64,000 bases of DNA, taken from NCBI RefSeq assembly GCF_021533835.1, contig NZ_JAKFYQ010000002.1, positions 744,001-808,000 on the forward strand. The letters run 5' to 3'. A program made the translations under genes and the position numbers. Source of the DNA: Synechococcus sp. Nb3U1 (GTDB taxonomy: Bacteria > Cyanobacteriota > Cyanobacteriia > Thermostichales > Thermostichaceae). Positions 9,725 through 40,743 of the stretch are shown here, piece after piece. How positions within the stretch are numbered: position 1 is the first letter of the stretch; each line of letters opens with the position of its first letter. Under the pieces are notes generated by a model. The model was not told the DNA's origin and did no database searches. It worked only from the letters and a program-made list of their open reading frames with translations.

Positions 9725-10996
9725 ATGGACATCGGCAGCATCGACCAGTGGATATGGGGTGGAGGGATCGCGTTGGCCTCCATTCTTTGGGCTGAGATCG
9801 TGCGGGATATTCGCCATTGGCTGGCTCACGGTTGGCCCTGGCTGATGCCCAAGCACAACCTGCACCATCGCCTATTTCGCCGCGATCTGAGCGTGGTGGA
9901 CGGGCAACTGTACCGGGAATCTCAGTGGCACCACGATGTGCCGGAAGCCGTGACGATGATCCTGACCGGGATCCCTTGGGTGGTCTTGTTAGGCTGGGGA
10001 TCCTGGCTGAATGGCGTGGCGGCAACGGTGGGCATTGTCTACTCCGCCAGCTTTTTGGTCTCGGGGATGCTGCGGGGCTGGGGTCTGGCCCTAGAAACTG
10101 ATATCACCCATCAACCGGGGCCTTTTCGATTTCCGCCCAGCCAATGGCATGTCAACCGCACCTACCACTGGCGGCACCACTTCGACGATACCAATGCTTA
10201 TTTCTGCGGCACCCTGACGTTTGTGGATCGGATGATGGGCACCAGTCTTTCTTTAAAGGGCAAGCGAGTGGCGGTCACAGGGGCCTCTGGCACCCTTGGA
10301 CATGGGCTGTTGAAGCACCTCCACCGGCAGGGGGCCAAAGTCATCGCCCTCAGTTCTCAGCCGGATCCCATTCAAATTGAGATGGATGGGCAACTGCAAG
10401 CTGTAGAAACGATCCATTGGCAGGTGGGGCAGGAGGGATCCCTGCTGGATCTTTTCGAGCGCATCGATATTCTCGTTCTCAACCACGGCCTCAATGTTCA
10501 TGGTGCTCGGGATGCGGAGGCAGTTCGCCGATCCTATGCCGTCAATACCTTCTCCAGTTGGCGCCTGATGGAATTGTTCTTCCAGACGGTGCGCAGCAAC
10601 CCGGAGGTGGCCACCAAAGAGGTTTGGGTGAACACCTCAGAGGCCGAAGTCAGCCCCGCCTTTAGCCCCCTCTACGAGCTTTCCAAACGCGCCCTTGGGG
10701 ATTTGGTTACCCTGCGCCGTCTAGATGCCCCCTGTGTGGTGCGCAAGCTGATCCTAGGGCCCTTCAAGAGCAATCTCAACCCGATTGGGGTCATGTCTGG
10801 AGATTGGGTCGCGGCTCAGATCTTGGCTCAAGCCAAGCGTGACTGCCGCAACATTATCGTCACCATTAACCCTTTCACCTACCTGTTTTTCCCCCTGAAA
10901 GAACTGGCTGTAGGCACCTATTTCCGGCTGTTTAGTCGTTCTCTCCCCCATCCAGAAGCCGCTGCTTCCAACTCCGATGGGATCCCTGTGGTTTGA
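9725..10996 (+). CDS. Bifunctional fatty-acid-hydroxylase-like (sterol desaturase) / short-chain dehydrogenase fusion
   Basis: 423 residues in two modules. The N-terminal half has histidine clusters of the membrane di-iron hydroxylase/desaturase superfamily: HNLHH (about 44-48), QWHHD (68-71) and WRHHFDD (about 149-155), with hydrophobic segments between. The C-terminal half is a short-chain dehydrogenase with VAVTGASGTLGHG (about 184-196) for NAD(P) binding and YELSK (about 317-321) as the YxxxK catalytic pair. This fusion is a recurrent cyanobacterial annotation, and its substrate is not established. One protein could hydroxylate a lipid and then oxidise or reduce the product; that is inference. 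Gaps of about 140 and 170 bp suggest it is transcribed alone. Confidence 0.85.
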   Translation: MDIGSIDQWIWGGGIALASILWAEIVRDIRHWLAHGWPWLMPKHNLHHRLFRRDLSVVDGQLYRESQWHHDVPEAVTMILTGIPWVVLLGWGSWLNGVAATVGIVYSASFLVSGMLRGWGLALETDITHQPGPFRFPPSQWHVNRTYHWRHHFDDTNAYFCGTLTFVDRMMGTSLSLKGKRVAVTGASGTLGHGLLKHLHRQGAKVIALSSQPDPIQIEMDGQLQAVETIHWQVGQEGSLLDLFERIDILVLNHGLNVHGARDAEAVRRSYAVNTFSSWRLMELFFQTVRSNPEVATKEVWVNTSEAEVSPAFSPLYELSKRALGDLVTLRRLDAPCVVRKLILGPFKSNLNPIGVMSGDWVAAQILAQAKRDCRNIIVTINPFTYLFFPLKELAVGTYFRLFSRSLPHPEAAASNSDGIPVV

Positions 10997-34138: not shown

Positions 34139-34480
34139 ATGAGTGCACAGGCAGTCACAGAATTCTTAGCAAAAGTCACAGAGAATGAAGATTTGATGAA
34201 AGAGGTCATTCAGGTGCTGGATGCAGAAGACGACCGGGAGGCGGTGGCTTCCTTGGCTGCTCAGAAAGGATTTGAGTTCACCTCAGAGGAGCTTTGGGCA
34301 GAGGTATATCGTCGTCAAGCAGAGTTCTCTCGTCGTCAGGATTTAGGCGAACTGACGGATGAAGAACTAGAGGCCATTGCTGGAGGGGAGATGTTGGTGG
34401 CAACCGCCCTAACAGTTGGTTTGGCAACGGCATTGGGCAGCGCGATTAGCATAGCCATTGCTCCTAAGGTGAAGTGGTAA
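34139..34480 (+). CDS. Nif11-type leader RiPP precursor peptide
   Basis: 113 residues. The leader (1-83) has the Nif11 pattern: AVTEFLAKVTENEDLMKEV at the start and KGFEFTSEELWAEV in the middle. It closes with GELTDEELEAIAGG, whose double glycine (82-83) is the expected cleavage site. The core (84-113, EMLVATALTVGLATALGSAI then SIAIAPKVKW) is hydrophobic, has Ser/Thr but no Cys, and ends K-V-K-W. Nif11 and nitrile-hydratase-type leaders direct peptides to many kinds of RiPP enzymes. Lack of Cys argues against lanthionine or sactionine products. Possible modifying enzymes follow at 35.3-39.6 kb. GAAGAGGGC precedes the ATG. Confidence 0.85.
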   Translation: MSAQAVTEFLAKVTENEDLMKEVIQVLDAEDDREAVASLAAQKGFEFTSEELWAEVYRRQAEFSRRQDLGELTDEELEAIAGGEMLVATALTVGLATALGSAISIAIAPKVKW

Positions 34481-35006: not shown

Positions 35007-35257
35007 ATGAGTATACAAGCTGCACAGATCTTGCCATTTCGAAGGGGTTTGACCTGACGCCTGATGAGCTTTGGGAGGAAGTGCAGAGACGGCAGGCAGA
35101 GACTCCCACTAATGAATTAACTGATGAGGAGTTAGAGTCTGTGGCAGGTGGAGAAGTTAAGGTGTCTCTTACAATTGCTATTGTCTCTGCGACAGTGGGC
35201 GCAACAGCAAGTGTAGTGACAGGCTGGGTTCCAAAACCTCCAAAACCAAAATGGTAA
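35007..35257 (+). pseudogene. Nif11-type precursor with damaged leader but readable core
   Basis: From the ATG at 35007 the frame gives MSIQAAQ, like the intact MSAQAVT start, then stops after 16 codons. In another frame, from 35030, comes AISKGFDLTPDELWEEV, then NELTDEELESVAGG and a 34-residue core ending VPKPPKPKW. About 33 leader residues are missing at the junction, with a frameshift. The core shares the hydrophobic Ala/Val/Thr/Gly composition and K-x-K-W end of the intact precursor and lacks Cys. The preserved core suggests recent damage. A start in the second frame cannot be seen. Confidence 0.65.
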
Positions 35258-35313
35258 ACCTAAATGCCAGATGACTAACCAGATGACTGAGTGTTTGCTC
35301 GTTTCTGAGAAGA

Positions 35314-35356
35314 AGAGTAGAGTTGTGCTGGTGTTATAACAACTCTGCTCTTTTTT
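35314..35356 (+). terminator. Terminator/attenuator between the precursor array and the OTC-like gene
   Basis: AGAGTAGAGTTGT pairs with ACAACTCTGCTCT (13 bp, one G-T pair, 12-base loop), followed by six T. It ends only 10 bases before the OTC-like ATG, so downstream expression depends on read-through or on a promoter within the hairpin. Such arrangements give more precursor than enzyme. Confidence 0.7.
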
Positions 35357-35366
35357 GTATTGTTAA

Positions 35367-36371
35367 ATGCTTAAACATTGGATTAGCCTACTAGATTGGG
35401 ATCCTGGATCCCTGCAGGGAATCCTCAGGCTAGGTATAGAAGCGTTCGAACAAGCTCAACAAGGTTTGGTTGATGAGAATTATAAGGATCTTGCAAACAA
35501 GCCAACCCGAGTTGCATTCCTCTCCCAAAAAGCTTCTTTGCGAACCCGACTTAGCTTTGAGGTTGCGGTGAGCTTGCTAAGAGGGCAACTTATTCCCTTA
35601 AGTCTTGAGGAAATTGGCTGGGGCTATCGAGAGTCCATTCAGGATTTTGCAGCTACGCTAGGCCTTTTTGTGGATGCTGTTGTTATTCGTTTGCGGCACC
35701 ATACAGAACTGCTCGAGTTAGCCCGCTGGTCTACCGTGCCTATCATCAATGCCATGACCGATTACTGTCATCCCTGTCAAACTCTGGCGGATGTGATGAC
35801 CCTAGAGCAGGAATTTGGCAGTTATGCAGGCTTAAGGGTTGCATTCGTGGGGCATAGCGCTCAGGAGGTTTGTCGCTCATTAGCCTTTGCAGCCGCCAAG
35901 TTTGGGTTTCATCTGATGATCAGTAGCCCACCCGAATTTTGTCTTGACGCAGATTCCATCCAACTGGCCAACCAAGTTAACCATCATGAAGCCGTTACCC
36001 TCATAGGGGATCCCGTGCAAGCCGTAGAACAAGCTGATGCCATCTACACGGATTCTTGGATTCAAACAGGCTTGTTGGAGAAAGAAGTCGAATTCCGGCT
36101 CACAAAATTGGCTACTTATCAAGTCAACGAAGCACTCCTGATGCACGCTCCATCCCATGCTATCCTCCTGCACTGTATGCCTATGGAGAGAGGTAGAGAG
36201 ATTACAGACTCTGTTGCGGAGGGATCCCAGTCAAGGATCCTAAAACAGGCCAAGAATCGAATTTATGCTCAGAAAGGGATTCTGTCATTCCTTCTCGGTA
36301 AACAGTTGGCGATACAGCCTTTTCCAGCGTCATCTGATACAGCAGATTCAGGTCAATCTTGTACCCCATAA
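35367..36371 (+). CDS. Ornithine-carbamoyltransferase-like enzyme in RiPP cluster
   Basis: 334 residues with the two-domain transcarbamylase plan. Carbamoyl-phosphate residues are kept: SLRTR (57-61), an Arg near 108-110, HPCQ (135-138) and the C-terminal HCMP...R (269-275). Acceptor-binding parts are altered. The GDxxNN turn of ornithine enzymes is GHSAQE (162-167), and the SMG loop after DxW is QTG (229-235). So it probably carbamoylates another amine, or binds differently. Its place after Nif11-type precursors suggests a peptide substrate (lysine, or ornithine made elsewhere); that is inference. The last 19 codons fall in a MITE-like element. No good ribosome-binding site precedes the ATG. 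Confidence 0.85.
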   Translation: MLKHWISLLDWDPGSLQGILRLGIEAFEQAQQGLVDENYKDLANKPTRVAFLSQKASLRTRLSFEVAVSLLRGQLIPLSLEEIGWGYRESIQDFAATLGLFVDAVVIRLRHHTELLELARWSTVPIINAMTDYCHPCQTLADVMTLEQEFGSYAGLRVAFVGHSAQEVCRSLAFAAAKFGFHLMISSPPEFCLDADSIQLANQVNHHEAVTLIGDPVQAVEQADAIYTDSWIQTGLLEKEVEFRLTKLATYQVNEALLMHAPSHAILLHCMPMERGREITDSVAEGSQSRILKQAKNRIYAQKGILSFLLGKQLAIQPFPASSDTADSGQSCTP

Positions 36372-36489: not shown

Positions 36490-37878
36490 GTGATGGGTGA
36501 TAGTACTATACAAAGGATTCATGAACCCTCAATGAAGATATCTGAAAGTCTAAGACAACTCTTCAAGGTCGAGGAGGCAGAGGTCAGGGTCGTCTTTATG
36601 ATGACTTTAATTCTGTTGATAAACTCTATTGCCAGACAAATATCGGATGTCGTTGCCGTCAGCGGATTTCTCAGCACAGTAGGTTCCGATGCTATTTTAG
36701 TTGTCTGGCTAGTTGATATGTTTATCGTCATGCTGGTGACAGCAATTCAGTCTGTAGTGATTGATAAATACAATCGACTTCAGCTTTTAAGTTGGATGGT
36801 TTTTAGTTTTGCATTAATTCATATTTTATTAAGATTTTTATTCATTTTTGAAGGCGTGAGAGGGATTAACTACGGCTTACTGTTTCTCTTGTCTGAGCAG
36901 CAACAGCTTTTCTTCCCCATCATCTTTTGGGTTCTAGCCAATGATATTTTTAGCATGACCCAGTCGAAACGCTTGTTTCCTCCGATTGCATCTGGAGAGT
37001 TTGTCGGACAAATTTTAGGACTTGGAATTTCAGGAATTGCCCCAATACTTTTAACTAGAGTTGACTTGAAGACGGAGGAACTGCTTGTCTTCAATGGATT
37101 GCTTTATATGATCATTTTTATCTTTATAAAAGCAGGGTTGCATGGGGTTGAGATTAGACGAACCAGTAATAAGAAAGAGACTTTCCAGGAATCTCTCAGT
37201 GAGGGTTGGGAGTTCATCAAAGAAATTCCTGCATTTCGTTACATTATGTTTTCTATTATTGGAATTAATGTTGTTCTTACCATCTTTGAGTTCGATTTTC
37301 TTGGCATTACTAACCAAGCATTTCCTACTGTAGAAAGCTACCAGCAATTCTACAGCTTATTTAGACTAGGACTTATTCTCTCTGCCACTTTTATCCAAAC
37401 CTTCTTAACCAGTCGCATATTGCAAGTCTTAAATCTAAAAAACGCCTTGCTGATCTTGCCGATCAACCAGTTGTTTGCCAGCCTGTGGATGATTCTTTCT
37501 AGAGGTCTGGTCAGTGGGATCGGAGGCTTTAGCCTATCCAAAATCTCGCAATTGACGATTAACGAAGCTGCTGGAAAATCGATCCAATCTCTTGTGCCTG
37601 AGGAACGCCGAGGTAGGGTTAGCTTGTTTATGGACAGCTACTTATTTGCAATTGGAACGATCATGGGATGTGTTATTTTAACGTTGATATGGGGATCCTC
37701 ATTCTTTATTGAAACTGTCGATCATCGGCAAATCTATTTGATCTTAGCAGCCGTGGTCGGCGTAGCCAATGTTGGGTTCGTTTTGAAAATGCGGTCTACC
37801 TACGATAGCAGCTTACTTAACTGGCGACTGAAGCGTAGACAGAAAGGCAGGAGCGTTTTGGATCAACTGGATTTCTAG
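36490..37878 (+). CDS. NTT-like (nucleotide transporter family)/MFS membrane protein
   Basis: 462 residues, about 10-12 membrane helices. The stretch FWVLANDIFSMTQSKRLFPPIASGEFVGQILGL resembles the ATP/ADP-antiporter (NTT/TlcC) family, split here over residues 146-178. SLVPEERRGRVSLFMDSYLFAIG is a loop common to the MFS-like relatives. In the cluster it could export the peptide product or supply a nucleotide or cofactor; which one is unknown. Starts are possible at GTG 36490 or ATG 36493, behind TTAGGAG. Base composition looks A+T-rich and GGATCC sites are absent between 36,240 and 37,690, unlike the surrounding chromosome, pointing to acquisition. Confidence 0.75.
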   Translation: MMGDSTIQRIHEPSMKISESLRQLFKVEEAEVRVVFMMTLILLINSIARQISDVVAVSGFLSTVGSDAILVVWLVDMFIVMLVTAIQSVVIDKYNRLQLLSWMVFSFALIHILLRFLFIFEGVRGINYGLLFLLSEQQQLFFPIIFWVLANDIFSMTQSKRLFPPIASGEFVGQILGLGISGIAPILLTRVDLKTEELLVFNGLLYMIIFIFIKAGLHGVEIRRTSNKKETFQESLSEGWEFIKEIPAFRYIMFSIIGINVVLTIFEFDFLGITNQAFPTVESYQQFYSLFRLGLILSATFIQTFLTSRILQVLNLKNALLILPINQLFASLWMILSRGLVSGIGGFSLSKISQLTINEAAGKSIQSLVPEERRGRVSLFMDSYLFAIGTIMGCVILTLIWGSSFFIETVDHRQIYLILAAVVGVANVGFVLKMRSTYDSSLLNWRLKRRQKGRSVLDQLDF

Positions 37879-37916: not shown

Positions 37917-38564
37917 ATGGTGAACTCTCATAATATCGAGATTGCCCACATCTATGTTGACAAGGAAAATCCTCAATTTCTGTCGGATGAGGTACTTTAT
38001 CATATTCACTTTTCTGTAGATTACGCACGACGCTGGATCAAGGCCTATGACTTAATGCCGGAAGACTATTGTATTAGCGTATTAATTGACGATCGAGAAC
38101 TTTACGAGAATGATCAAGATAGATTCCAAAGTTTTGTTCCTTTTGTGGCGACTATCGCCAGATATTTTGAGCTGGACTATGTCTGTTTTGAGAGCGAGCT
38201 GGATAGACTGCTGGGATCCACCCTAGAGCAACTCAGCCAGCCTGAAGTACTACAGGAGGATATTTTTAGAAGATATGGCGGAGTTCTACAATGCTCTCAC
38301 TACGTCGGCATTTGGCATCTGATGAGGCTGGGATCCCTGCCTCTGATGAACTTGGCTATTCCTGTGTCTCAACGAGCTCAGTTGGGAAAATGTAGCTTCG
38401 CTGCCGAAACGGCGGTGTCTATTTTGGGAGAGGAATACCGTAGTGCCGAGCGTTCCGCCCATCGTAAGATTCTTTCCCGTTGCTGGGATCCTAAGATTAC
38501 TCAGCGTATCAAGCATAGCTACTACCCTTCCTATGCTCTCGCAGGCGAGCGGAAATTCTCATGA
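37917..38564 (+). CDS. Unrecognised 215-aa protein coupled to the ATP-grasp gene
   Basis: 215 residues, soluble, with no signal peptide and no motif I recognise. Features: an acidic N-terminal half with YCISVLIDDRELYENDQDRF, two aromatic-rich stretches (IARYFELDYVCFESELDRLL; HYVGIWHLMRLGSLPLMNLA) and a basic C-terminus with ERSAHRKILSRCW. The stop overlaps the ATG of the ATP-grasp gene (ATGA), so the two proteins are made in step and may form a complex. It may be a partner, leader-binding or acyl-donor protein for peptide modification; no sequence evidence decides. A GATGGGGA site precedes the start at 37917. Confidence 0.75.
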   Translation: MVNSHNIEIAHIYVDKENPQFLSDEVLYHIHFSVDYARRWIKAYDLMPEDYCISVLIDDRELYENDQDRFQSFVPFVATIARYFELDYVCFESELDRLLGSTLEQLSQPEVLQEDIFRRYGGVLQCSHYVGIWHLMRLGSLPLMNLAIPVSQRAQLGKCSFAAETAVSILGEEYRSAERSAHRKILSRCWDPKITQRIKHSYYPSYALAGERKFS

Positions 38565-39568
38565 AAATTGGTCTTACCTACGACTTGCGTCCCTTGGATC
38601 CGCCATCTCCAGATCTACCTGTGGATCATTACGCAGAATTTGATAGCTCTGAAACCTTGTATTTTTTAACTGAAGGATTGCAAGCACTGGGCTTCGAGGT
38701 TGAGCGGATCGGTAACCTTTTAGCCCTACTAGAGCGACTTCATTCAAATCTGCTTTCTGTAGATTTAATCTTTAATATAGCCGAAGGGCTATGGGGTCGA
38801 GGACGAGAAGCTCTCATCCCAGCTCTATTGGAAGCCTACCGGATTCCTTATGTGGGATCGGATCCCCTGACACTCTCTCTTTGTTTAGATAAAGCCATGA
38901 CCAAACAAGTATGGAAAGGATGTAGTCTTCCTACAGCTTCCGCTTGGGTGGTACGAAGGGTCGAGGAATTGAGTCATTTATCAATTTCTGTCGATTATTT
39001 TCCCCTTTTTGTCAAACCTTGTCATGAGGGATCCTCAAAAGGTATTGATAGTCAGCGCTCTGTGATCTCAAGTTTTTTAGAGCTGCAAAGTCAGGTTGAA
39101 TATTTGCTCAGGATTTATCAACAGCCTATTTTGATTGAAAAATTTTTATCAGGTCGGGAATTTACAGTTGGGATATTGGGTACAGGGGAGAATACCCGCG
39201 TCTTGGGAATCACGGAAATTACTGAGGTCGCTCTCTATGGAGCTAGTGGGTATCGAGAGAAGGAAGAATGGGAGAGCCTAGCACCTGATACCTATCTTCC
39301 CTTGGGGCCAAGCCTGTTGTGGGATGAACTTGCCAAGGTAGCTCTTGCCGCATACCAAGCTGTAGAATGTAGAGATTTGGGTCGTGTCGATATTCGGCTA
39401 GATGCAGAGGGGAACCCTAACCTTCTGGAGATTAATCCATTGCCCGGTCTGAATCCGAAGCATTGTGCCCTGCCAATCATCGCCCAGCAACAGGGGCTTT
39501 CCTACCCGGATCTCTTGGGTCAGATTTTGGACTCCTACCTGAGTCGTGAGAAGATCTTATGCAAATAA
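38561..39568 (+). CDS. D-Ala-D-Ala-ligase-like ATP-grasp ligase in RiPP cluster
   Basis: 335 residues with the Ddl plan: NIAEG (72-76), VGSDPLTLSLCLDK (98-111), KPCHEGSSKG (152-161, ATP and substrate loop), LIEKFLSGREFTVGILG (191-207), RVDIR (275-279) and LEINPLPGLNP (289-299). The Mg-binding Asp277, Glu290 and Asn292 are kept, so it should be active as an ATP-dependent carboxylate-amine ligase. Housekeeping ddl is not expected in such a context. In this cluster it may ligate an amino acid or amine to the peptide or close an amide bond, as ATP-grasps do in microviridin-type RiPPs. It is ATGA-coupled to the 215-residue protein. Confidence 0.88.
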   Translation: MKIGLTYDLRPLDPPSPDLPVDHYAEFDSSETLYFLTEGLQALGFEVERIGNLLALLERLHSNLLSVDLIFNIAEGLWGRGREALIPALLEAYRIPYVGSDPLTLSLCLDKAMTKQVWKGCSLPTASAWVVRRVEELSHLSISVDYFPLFVKPCHEGSSKGIDSQRSVISSFLELQSQVEYLLRIYQQPILIEKFLSGREFTVGILGTGENTRVLGITEITEVALYGASGYREKEEWESLAPDTYLPLGPSLLWDELAKVALAAYQAVECRDLGRVDIRLDAEGNPNLLEINPLPGLNPKHCALPIIAQQQGLSYPDLLGQILDSYLSREKILCK

Positions 39569-39657: not shown

Positions 39658-40743
39658 ATGTTGACTCAAGCCCTAAACTCAAAAGTCGTATCCCAGAGAA
39701 AAAGGAAGCGGCCTTTTCTAAGCTTGCGCTTTAAACTTCTATTTGGATTTACTTTAACCTTTAGCTGTGTTTTTGCGGGAGCCTATTATTGGTTTTACCG
39801 ATACTCTACTTCAACAGCATTGAGTCGAATTAAAGAAGAGTTGATCTGGACTTTAGAAGGAGCTTCTGCCGAGATTGATGGAGATGCTCTACTCACCCTC
39901 AAAAAAGAGGCTAAGCCTCGCGAAGATGGCTACACAGACGATCCACGCTATTGGGAGCATGTACGGTTTCTAGCTTCTCTGAAGGCGATCAATCCTGAGG
40001 TGCTTGCCTACACTTACCTTCCAGGAGACTCTCCCAACGAGGTGATTTTTATCGGTAGTAGCTCTGCTCTGCAGGATCCCCCATTTGGAGCTAAGTTTCT
40101 CGAGCGGTTCGTCAGTTCTGGTGATGAGAACTCCCTCATTAGTGGTTTGGAAAAACTGAGCATTTATCTAGAACCCTACACAGATGAGTTCGGCTATTGG
40201 GTTTCTGGTTGGATTCCAGTGAAAAATGCTAAAGGAGAAAATGTAGGAGGTTTGGGCATTGATTATCGAGCAGATTATGTGATCCGTGTGCAGCAAGGGA
40301 TCCGGGATAGCATCCTAGTTGCCTTCGTTTCTACCTATGGTGGGCTGTTTATTTTGGTGTTTATCTTCTCTTCTTTATTCAGCCGTCCTCTGCAGGTGCT
40401 AGCCAAGGCCGCTGAGGATGTACAGAAGGAAGACTATGACAGCTACATTCAGCAGTTGAAGCAACTGGAGCCTCGCAAAGGGCTGCCCAGTCTTCTGCCC
40501 ACCGATGAGATTTCTACCCTCACAGATATTTTTGATCTGATGGTGCAGGATGTACGGAGCAGAGAGATCAAACTAAAACAACAAGTGGCAGAGCTCAAGA
40601 TTGAGATTGATGAGGTGAAACGTCAGAACCAGGTGAAGGAAATTATCGATACAGACTTCTTCCAGTCATTGCAGGAAAAAGCAAGACGTTATCGCAATCG
40701 TATTTCAGCTGAGCAAAAGATTCCCAAGTCAGAAGAGCCTTGA
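39658..40743 (+). CDS. HAMP-domain membrane sensor without output domain
   Basis: 361 residues. Membrane helices near 25-47 and 222-247 enclose a periplasmic sensing part of about 175 residues (with YTYLPGDSPNEVIFIGSS and EFGYWVSGWIPVKNAKGENVGGLGIDY, a Cache-like pattern). A HAMP region (FSRPLQVLAKAAEDVQ ... DEISTLTDIFDLM) leads into a coiled coil and ends VKEIIDTDFFQSLQEKARRYR. No kinase, cyclase or GGDEF domain follows, so it must signal through a partner. It starts 90 bases after the ATP-grasp gene and could regulate or sense the product of the cluster, but membership is unproven. Confidence 0.75.
   Translation: MLTQALNSKVVSQRKRKRPFLSLRFKLLFGFTLTFSCVFAGAYYWFYRYSTSTALSRIKEELIWTLEGASAEIDGDALLTLKKEAKPREDGYTDDPRYWEHVRFLASLKAINPEVLAYTYLPGDSPNEVIFIGSSSALQDPPFGAKFLERFVSSGDENSLISGLEKLSIYLEPYTDEFGYWVSGWIPVKNAKGENVGGLGIDYRADYVIRVQQGIRDSILVAFVSTYGGLFILVFIFSSLFSRPLQVLAKAAEDVQKEDYDSYIQQLKQLEPRKGLPSLLPTDEISTLTDIFDLMVQDVRSREIKLKQQVAELKIEIDEVKRQNQVKEIIDTDFFQSLQEKARRYRNRISAEQKIPKSEEP

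Follow-up and report, generated by a model that had tools for sequence, protein, structure and literature searches.

Organization of the transcarbamylase locus

The window, i.e., the whole 64,000-nucleotide stretch of the Synechococcus sp. Nb3U1 genome (G000) that was analysed, carries on its forward strand a gene (35367..36371, from the ATG at 35367 to the stop at 36371) encoding a 334-aa divergent transcarbamylase of the ornithine carbamoyltransferase (OTC) branch. Upstream, on the same strand, lie a gene (34139..34480) for a Nif11-leader RiPP precursor with a double Gly and a core ending in APKVKW, and a second Nif11-type tail (35081..35257), also with a double Gly, whose core ends in PKPPKPKW and whose leader is incomplete in the frame. 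An 18-bp hairpin followed by a T-run (35309..35356, + strand; -23.9 kcal/mol, z -5.65, with 0/200 shuffled sequences as stable), predicted to be a terminator or attenuator, stops ~10 nt short of the transcarbamylase ATG. Since so strong a hairpin directly precedes the gene, transcription probably reaches it by read-through from upstream. A promoter scan gave hits at chance level (13 found vs 11.2 expected).

Four further genes follow on the + strand. The first (36490..37878) encodes a 462-aa MFS-like membrane protein of the TLC/nucleotide-transporter type, whose relatives match MFS/TLC weakly. It is followed by a gene for a 215-aa orphan protein without an assigned family (37917..38564) and by one for a 335-aa ATP-grasp ligase (38561..39568) that resembles D-Ala-D-Ala ligases and scores under the cut-offs of those families. 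The last gene (39658..40743) encodes a 361-aa membrane protein with a weakly scoring HAMP domain and a conserved coiled-coil-like tail. The orphan gene overlaps the ATP-grasp gene by 4 bp; no relative of its product was detected in 385 other genomes, nor in plasmids by tblastn, and its fold prediction was poor (pLDDT 39).

The cluster is AT-richer than its surroundings (GC 0.38–0.49 vs about 0.51–0.57 in the flanks), and in the same-genus genome G002 it is absent, the flanking genes lying ~0.5 kb apart. In the sister genome G005, whose flank is 88% identical, everything between window positions 34360 and 40636 has been deleted, and the N-terminal ~74 residues of the Nif11 precursor now continue in frame into the last part of the HAMP gene; the resulting small hybrid Nif11-HAMP open frame lies at 10099–10428 of locus L053 (contig C27 of G005). 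This junction indicates that the common ancestor of both genomes had the two ends of the cluster, and it speaks to those ends rather than to the genes between them. The deletion also indicates that the cluster is dispensable.

The carbamoyl-phosphate site is kept and the acceptor loops are altered

Both transcarbamylase Pfam domains (PF00185 and PF02729) scored far above their cut-offs in the window protein. The closest families in the scan of family models were OTCs, none of them above cut-off (262.3 bits against TIGR00658, cut-off 280.85; 284.6 bits against PRK00779, cut-off 306). The open frame and the existence of orthologues (see below) ruled out a sequencing or frameshift artefact. An AlphaFold model was poor (pLDDT 51.8); among the matches listed by Foldseek for it, all belonged to the transcarbamylase family.

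The residues expected of the superfamily are present, namely SLRT (within SLRTR, residues 57–61), the strand-4 Arg (R108), HPCQ (135–138) and HCMP (269–272, with Met in place of Leu), together with a Trp (W85) 28 residues after the Ser of SLRT. An earlier note on this DNA had described SLRTR, HPCQ and HCMP as retained; all three are there, although SLRTR is itself altered from STRTR. The same note had pointed to changes in two elements that bind ornithine, and these can be read directly: the GDxxNN turn is G-H-S-A-Q-E, and the DxxxSMG loop is D229-S-W-I-Q-T-G. By comparison, all 24 aligned cyanobacterial ArgF proteins carry STRTR, GDGNN, D-x-W-x-SMG and HCLP.

In E. coli OTC, as given in the review PMC4581275, ornithine is held by N167, D231, S235 and M236, and via water by K53. 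Among the corresponding positions of the window protein, the Asp (D229) and the Lys (K55, two residues before SLRT) are kept, and those of the Asn, Ser and Met are changed.

The transcarbamylase belongs to a rare clade distinct from ArgF

A scan of genome contigs with the window transcarbamylase alone detected no relative, and none was found in viral contigs. When the genome contigs were searched with an alignment of the neighbouring transporter, 17 loci with transporter relatives were obtained, two of which, both from distant cyanobacteria, have a transcarbamylase gene directly before the transporter: Spirulina sp. CCY15215 (L058) and Cyanobacteria bacterium SBLK (L059). In both, the order is MinD-like, transcarbamylase, transporter and HAMP, with gaps of 2–18 bp; the transporter gene directly follows the transcarbamylase gene in 3/3 genomes. 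The two orthologues are 46–47% identical to the window protein, which shares 35–40% identity (maximum 40%) with the 24 cyanobacterial ArgF in the same alignment.

The orthologues contain SLRT, EIGWGxRES, GRSNQDVARS and DVWISRG, as well as HCLP in L059. Thus, the OTC-type SMG is missing from their loop too, and their GDxxNN turn (GRSNQD), like that of the window protein, has one residue more and lacks the acceptor-site Asn; the Lys two residues before SxRT is Arg in both. Common to all three members are SLRT, a Trp at Ser+28, G-R/H-S-x-Q-D/E and D-x-W-I-x-x-G, and 29 residues shared by the three are each present in no more than 5% of the 24 cyanobacterial ArgF. Since two orthologues share a pattern absent from 24/24 cyanobacterial ArgF, the altered motifs are not due to chance. 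The loop Asp is kept in 3/3 members, the Ser of SMG in 2/3 (both orthologues), and the Met is lost in 3/3. The earlier note's view that both ornithine-binding elements are lost is therefore too strong: both loops are altered, but the retained Asp and Ser indicate that the ornithine pocket was remodelled rather than erased, and K55 is also kept in the window protein.

In a phylogenetic tree, from which L081 (a duplicate of L002) was left out, the three members formed one clade with 100/99 support apart from cyanobacterial ArgF; the window branch was long (2.33) and its deeper placement uncertain. A profile built from the three members gave 573–616 bits on its own members and 249–277 bits on the true ArgF of the same genomes, a separate true argF being present in 3/3. 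The clade is rare: among 386 genomes of the phylum, only the window's own drew matches at E 1e-63, and among 291 genomes of the order of the Spirulina genome, only those of L058 and L059 matched. Between the latter two, dN/dS was ~0.09, at a dS of 1.3 that is near saturation.

The earlier note would have yielded to a placement inside ArgF in a genome with no other argF; the protein was found in a clade of its own, next to a separate argF. The separate argF in 3/3 genomes and the distinct, fully supported clade make a housekeeping role unlikely, and a housekeeping OTC was rejected on the former ground. This divergent transcarbamylase is thus real and conserved and probably not the housekeeping enzyme, and to that extent the earlier note's reading is supported.

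A second, drifted OTC still making citrulline, for local use or regulation, would fit the best matches to OTCs, the kept catalytic residues, D229 and K55, the Ser in the orthologues and their scores above the NCBI OTC cut-off (315.5 vs 280.85 bits). However, the loss of the SMG Met and the rebuilt turn, longer by one residue, in 3/3 members, the genomes' own argF elsewhere, the fixed order with the MFS and HAMP genes and the 29 clade-specific residues leave this reading with a rather low probability. A non-catalytic protein that senses carbamoyl phosphate, or serves the HAMP/MinD/MFS proteins as a scaffold, would likewise agree with a kept phosphate site, a changed acceptor pocket, the long window branch and the sensor-like neighbours, but it appears improbable, as the catalytic motifs are all kept in 3/3 members and L058 and L059 are under strong purifying selection.

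The transporter/HAMP module associates with enzymes that may act on basic amino acids

The neighbourhood of the transporter was compared across 21 distinct loci, leaving out the duplicates L062, L069, L070 and L074 (contigs of L047, L049, L052 and L050, respectively); several loci lie at contig ends, where absences are not firm. Of the 21, 18 have a HAMP gene near the transporter and 11 a MinD-like ATPase; KamA-type aminomutases occur in 6, pre-ATP-grasp proteins in 5, the transcarbamylase in 3 and, by clustering, SET proteins in 2. Pfam added a third SET protein in the Deinococcus plasmid locus (L024, NZ_CP092194.1), where the MFS/HAMP/MinD module lies together with SET, SpoIIE and STAS genes. 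With this third SET protein counted, 14/21 loci have at least one of aminomutase, pre-ATP-grasp, transcarbamylase and SET.

Four of the six aminomutases (L048, L051, L060 and L068) passed the NCBIfam cut-off for arginine 2,3-aminomutase, one is AblA-like, and the sixth is split and nearest to lysine 2,3-aminomutase. Four of the five pre-ATP-grasp proteins matched the amino-acid ligase BesA weakly, far under cut-off, and one matched nothing. In L048 and L051, the arginine 2,3-aminomutase occurs together with a ligase-like pre-ATP-grasp protein. No aminomutase or ligase genes were seen within L058 and L059, and a literature search linking arginine 2,3-aminomutase with cyanobacteria returned nothing. 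The combination of these enzymes hints at basic amino acids as the common theme of the module.

Relationship with the Nif11 precursors

The Nif11 precursor at 34139..34480 is part of the neighbourhood, and its tie to the transcarbamylase is unproven. The earlier note had proposed a peptide side chain as the acceptor, with Lys giving homocitrulline. The enzyme might carbamoylate Lys or the N-terminus of the upstream Nif11 precursors, and the MFS protein might export what is formed. The two double-Gly precursors on the same strand, with their Lys-containing, KPKW-type C-termini, and the probable read-through from the precursor unit past the hairpin 10 nt before the ATG argue for this possibility. 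So does a 37.7-kb contig of a Halomicronema MAG that unites an MFS/HAMP pair with a KPKW Nif11 precursor, LanM, a JmjC protein, an AblA-like (aminomutase-like) rSAM, MinD and NHLM exporters. NHLM RiPP export genes above cut-off flank the transporter/HAMP module in 2/21 loci; in L071, NHLM ABC2 directly precedes the MFS gene, and in L058 a HExxH RiPP-protease-like gene (below cut-off) and an HlyD gene lie 3' of HAMP. The chemistry also has a precedent in StdF, considered below.

Against a peptide acceptor, no Nif11 leader motif was found beside the L058 and L059 loci, and KPKW-tailed Nif11 peptides also occur without an adjoining transcarbamylase, at C1:341–343 kb of the window's genome and in G005, where they adjoin a metallo-beta-lactamase-like gene instead. 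In addition, D229, which in OTCs holds the free alpha-amine, is kept. A Nif11 match was present in 31/59 relatives searched and absent from 28/59, and the eight genomes with a transporter match, among them G017 (an MFS match of 22% identity, outside the 21 loci), were divided into four with and four without Nif11. A general pairing of the MFS module with Nif11 peptides was therefore not upheld, although RiPP clusters recur at some loci. Moreover, the module occurs more often with arginine/lysine 2,3-aminomutases and ligase-like proteins than with RiPP export. A peptide side chain is hence possible, yet neither established nor favoured, and we consider it rather unlikely, ranking it just after ornithine itself. 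A literature search linking carbamoyltransferase, Nif11 and RiPPs returned nothing.

The Nif11-leader family with cores ending in KPKW or PKVKW comprises members in this genome (C1 and C2), G005 and the Halomicronema MAG (34139–34480, 35081–35257, L055:9410–11310 and L103:9658–10008). The metallo-beta-lactamase-like protein beside the KPKW peptides at C1, in G005 and in Halomicronema, where it is 53% identical, has ~490 aa.

Proposed role of the transcarbamylase

The rebuilt pocket and the transporter/sensor operon, in genomes with a normal arginine-pathway enzyme, suggest that the protein probably carbamoylates something other than plain ornithine. Among the readings considered, the leading one, held tentatively and at somewhat below even chances, is a carbamoyltransferase specialised for an amine that resembles ornithine, is perhaps N-substituted and forms part of an exported small molecule; the acceptor is more probably a small molecule than the side chain of a peptide. 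In its favour we count the L058/L059 operons, the 29 clade-specific residues, the low dN/dS, the separate argF in 3/3 genomes, the 100/99 clade support, the SLRT/Trp combination, the 14/21 loci with associated enzymes and the four aminomutases above the arginine 2,3-aminomutase cut-off. Counted against it are the kept D229 and K55, the orthologues scoring above the OTC cut-off, the lack of an evident AOTCase/SOTCase-type Glu/Lys pair, the orthologous loci without aminomutase or ligase genes, and the Nif11/RiPP genes, which point to peptides.

According to this favoured explanation, an OTC-branch carbamoyltransferase, diverged from ArgF and putatively active, would serve a membrane module composed of the MFS/TLC-like transporter, the HAMP-domain sensor-like protein and, in relatives, the MinD-like ATPase. 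Carbamoyl phosphate would bind first, at SLRT/R108/HPCQ, with W85 contributed by the neighbouring subunit. The acceptor may be an ornithine-like amine held by D229 and altered on its carboxyl or alpha-nitrogen side, e.g., N-acylated, aminoacylated or amidated, and its attack on carbamoyl phosphate would give a ureido (citrulline-like) group. Similar basic amino acids could also be the substrates of the ATP-grasp ligase encoded here and of the aminomutases and ligase-like proteins in sister loci. The MFS protein would export the product, the HAMP protein would sense it, or both.

Annotation easily assigns OTC-type genes to arginine biosynthesis, and 2/3 members of this clade would score above the OTC cut-off. 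Conserved, with a reshaped acceptor pocket and an operon of its own, the clade offers a concrete candidate for a transcarbamylase with a new acceptor. The module of transporter, HAMP protein and MinD-like ATPase is sparsely distributed and occurs in different cyanobacteria with arginine 2,3-aminomutase, ligase-like, SET or transcarbamylase genes; these varied enzymes hint that a family of basic amino acids or peptides is modified and exported.

Comparison with known transcarbamylases

The window protein resembles ArgF in its family, its phosphate-site and HPxQ/HCxP motifs, the loop Asp and the level of identity given above. The clade differs from ArgF in the replacement of the SxRT Thr by Leu, the EIGWG sequence of the 80's loop, QTG or SRG in place of SMG, G-H/R-S-x-Q-E/D with one extra residue in place of GDxxNN, and a separate operon.

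Table 1 of PMC4581275 gives Thr as the variable residue of SxRT in all its enzymes except AOTCase (Met) and SOTCase (Leu), and Trp as the 80's-loop contact to carbamoyl phosphate only in these two, both of which use N-acylated ornithine. By the residue numbers printed there, this Trp lies at Ser+28 (S49/W77 and S47/W75), the spacing being 26–27 in the Gln enzymes. S57-L58 and W85 reproduce this arrangement in the window protein, and both orthologues share it, with SLRT as in SOTCase and Trp as in both, the equivalence of W85 being judged from spacing and not from a structure. The presence of SLRT and a Trp at Ser+28 therefore hints at an acceptor bulkier than ornithine at the alpha-nitrogen. 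Unlike AOTCase and SOTCase, however, the window protein appears from its sequence to lack a Glu just before HPxQ (MTDYC precedes HPCQ), and it has the D229 loop (D-x-W-x-x-x-G) in place of the 240's-loop Lys site. The missing Glu and the retained OTC-type Asp argue against membership in either family; the score against the N-acetylornithine model was 127.7, far under the cut-off of 288.

A diaminopropionate, diaminobutyrate or putrescine transcarbamylase is very improbable. The loss of SMG and the Gln in the GDxxNN region recall the putrescine enzyme (PTCase), but the latter has Gln two residues before STRT and a (Y/W)(G/W)(V/L/I)x loop, whereas the window protein has Lys and IQTG and scored 207 against the putrescine model, far under the cut-off of 500. 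QTG is also similar to TTG, the last three residues of the DPTCase loop (T/S)RWQTTG, and the OTC branch fits as well. Nevertheless, as PMC4581275 describes them, DPTCase and DBTCase have a (T/S)RWQ loop with Thr/Ser replacing the loop Asp, and HDLP, in contrast to DSWIQTG with D229 and HCMP here. Membership in these three groups was rejected, since their motifs are not present. PTCase is further marked by a C-terminal helix signature; its membership was judged from the Gln and the loop.

StdF, from the std RiPP cluster (preprint PMC13174530), is reported to make homocitrulline in a RiPP, and would share its product with the window enzyme if lysine were the acceptor of the latter. The chemistry thus has a precedent, although through a different enzyme class: StdF is NodU-like and is not described there as OTC-like. 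We can envisage, as a possible but doubtful proposal, a transcarbamylase family set apart by an OTC-branch scaffold with a SOTCase-like phosphate gate (SLRT and Trp), which would carbamoylate a substituted ornithine-type amine, possibly in a dipeptide or Nif11 peptide. It would be one among several enzymes that modify basic amino acids and replace one another in a MinD/MFS/HAMP module for export and sensing.
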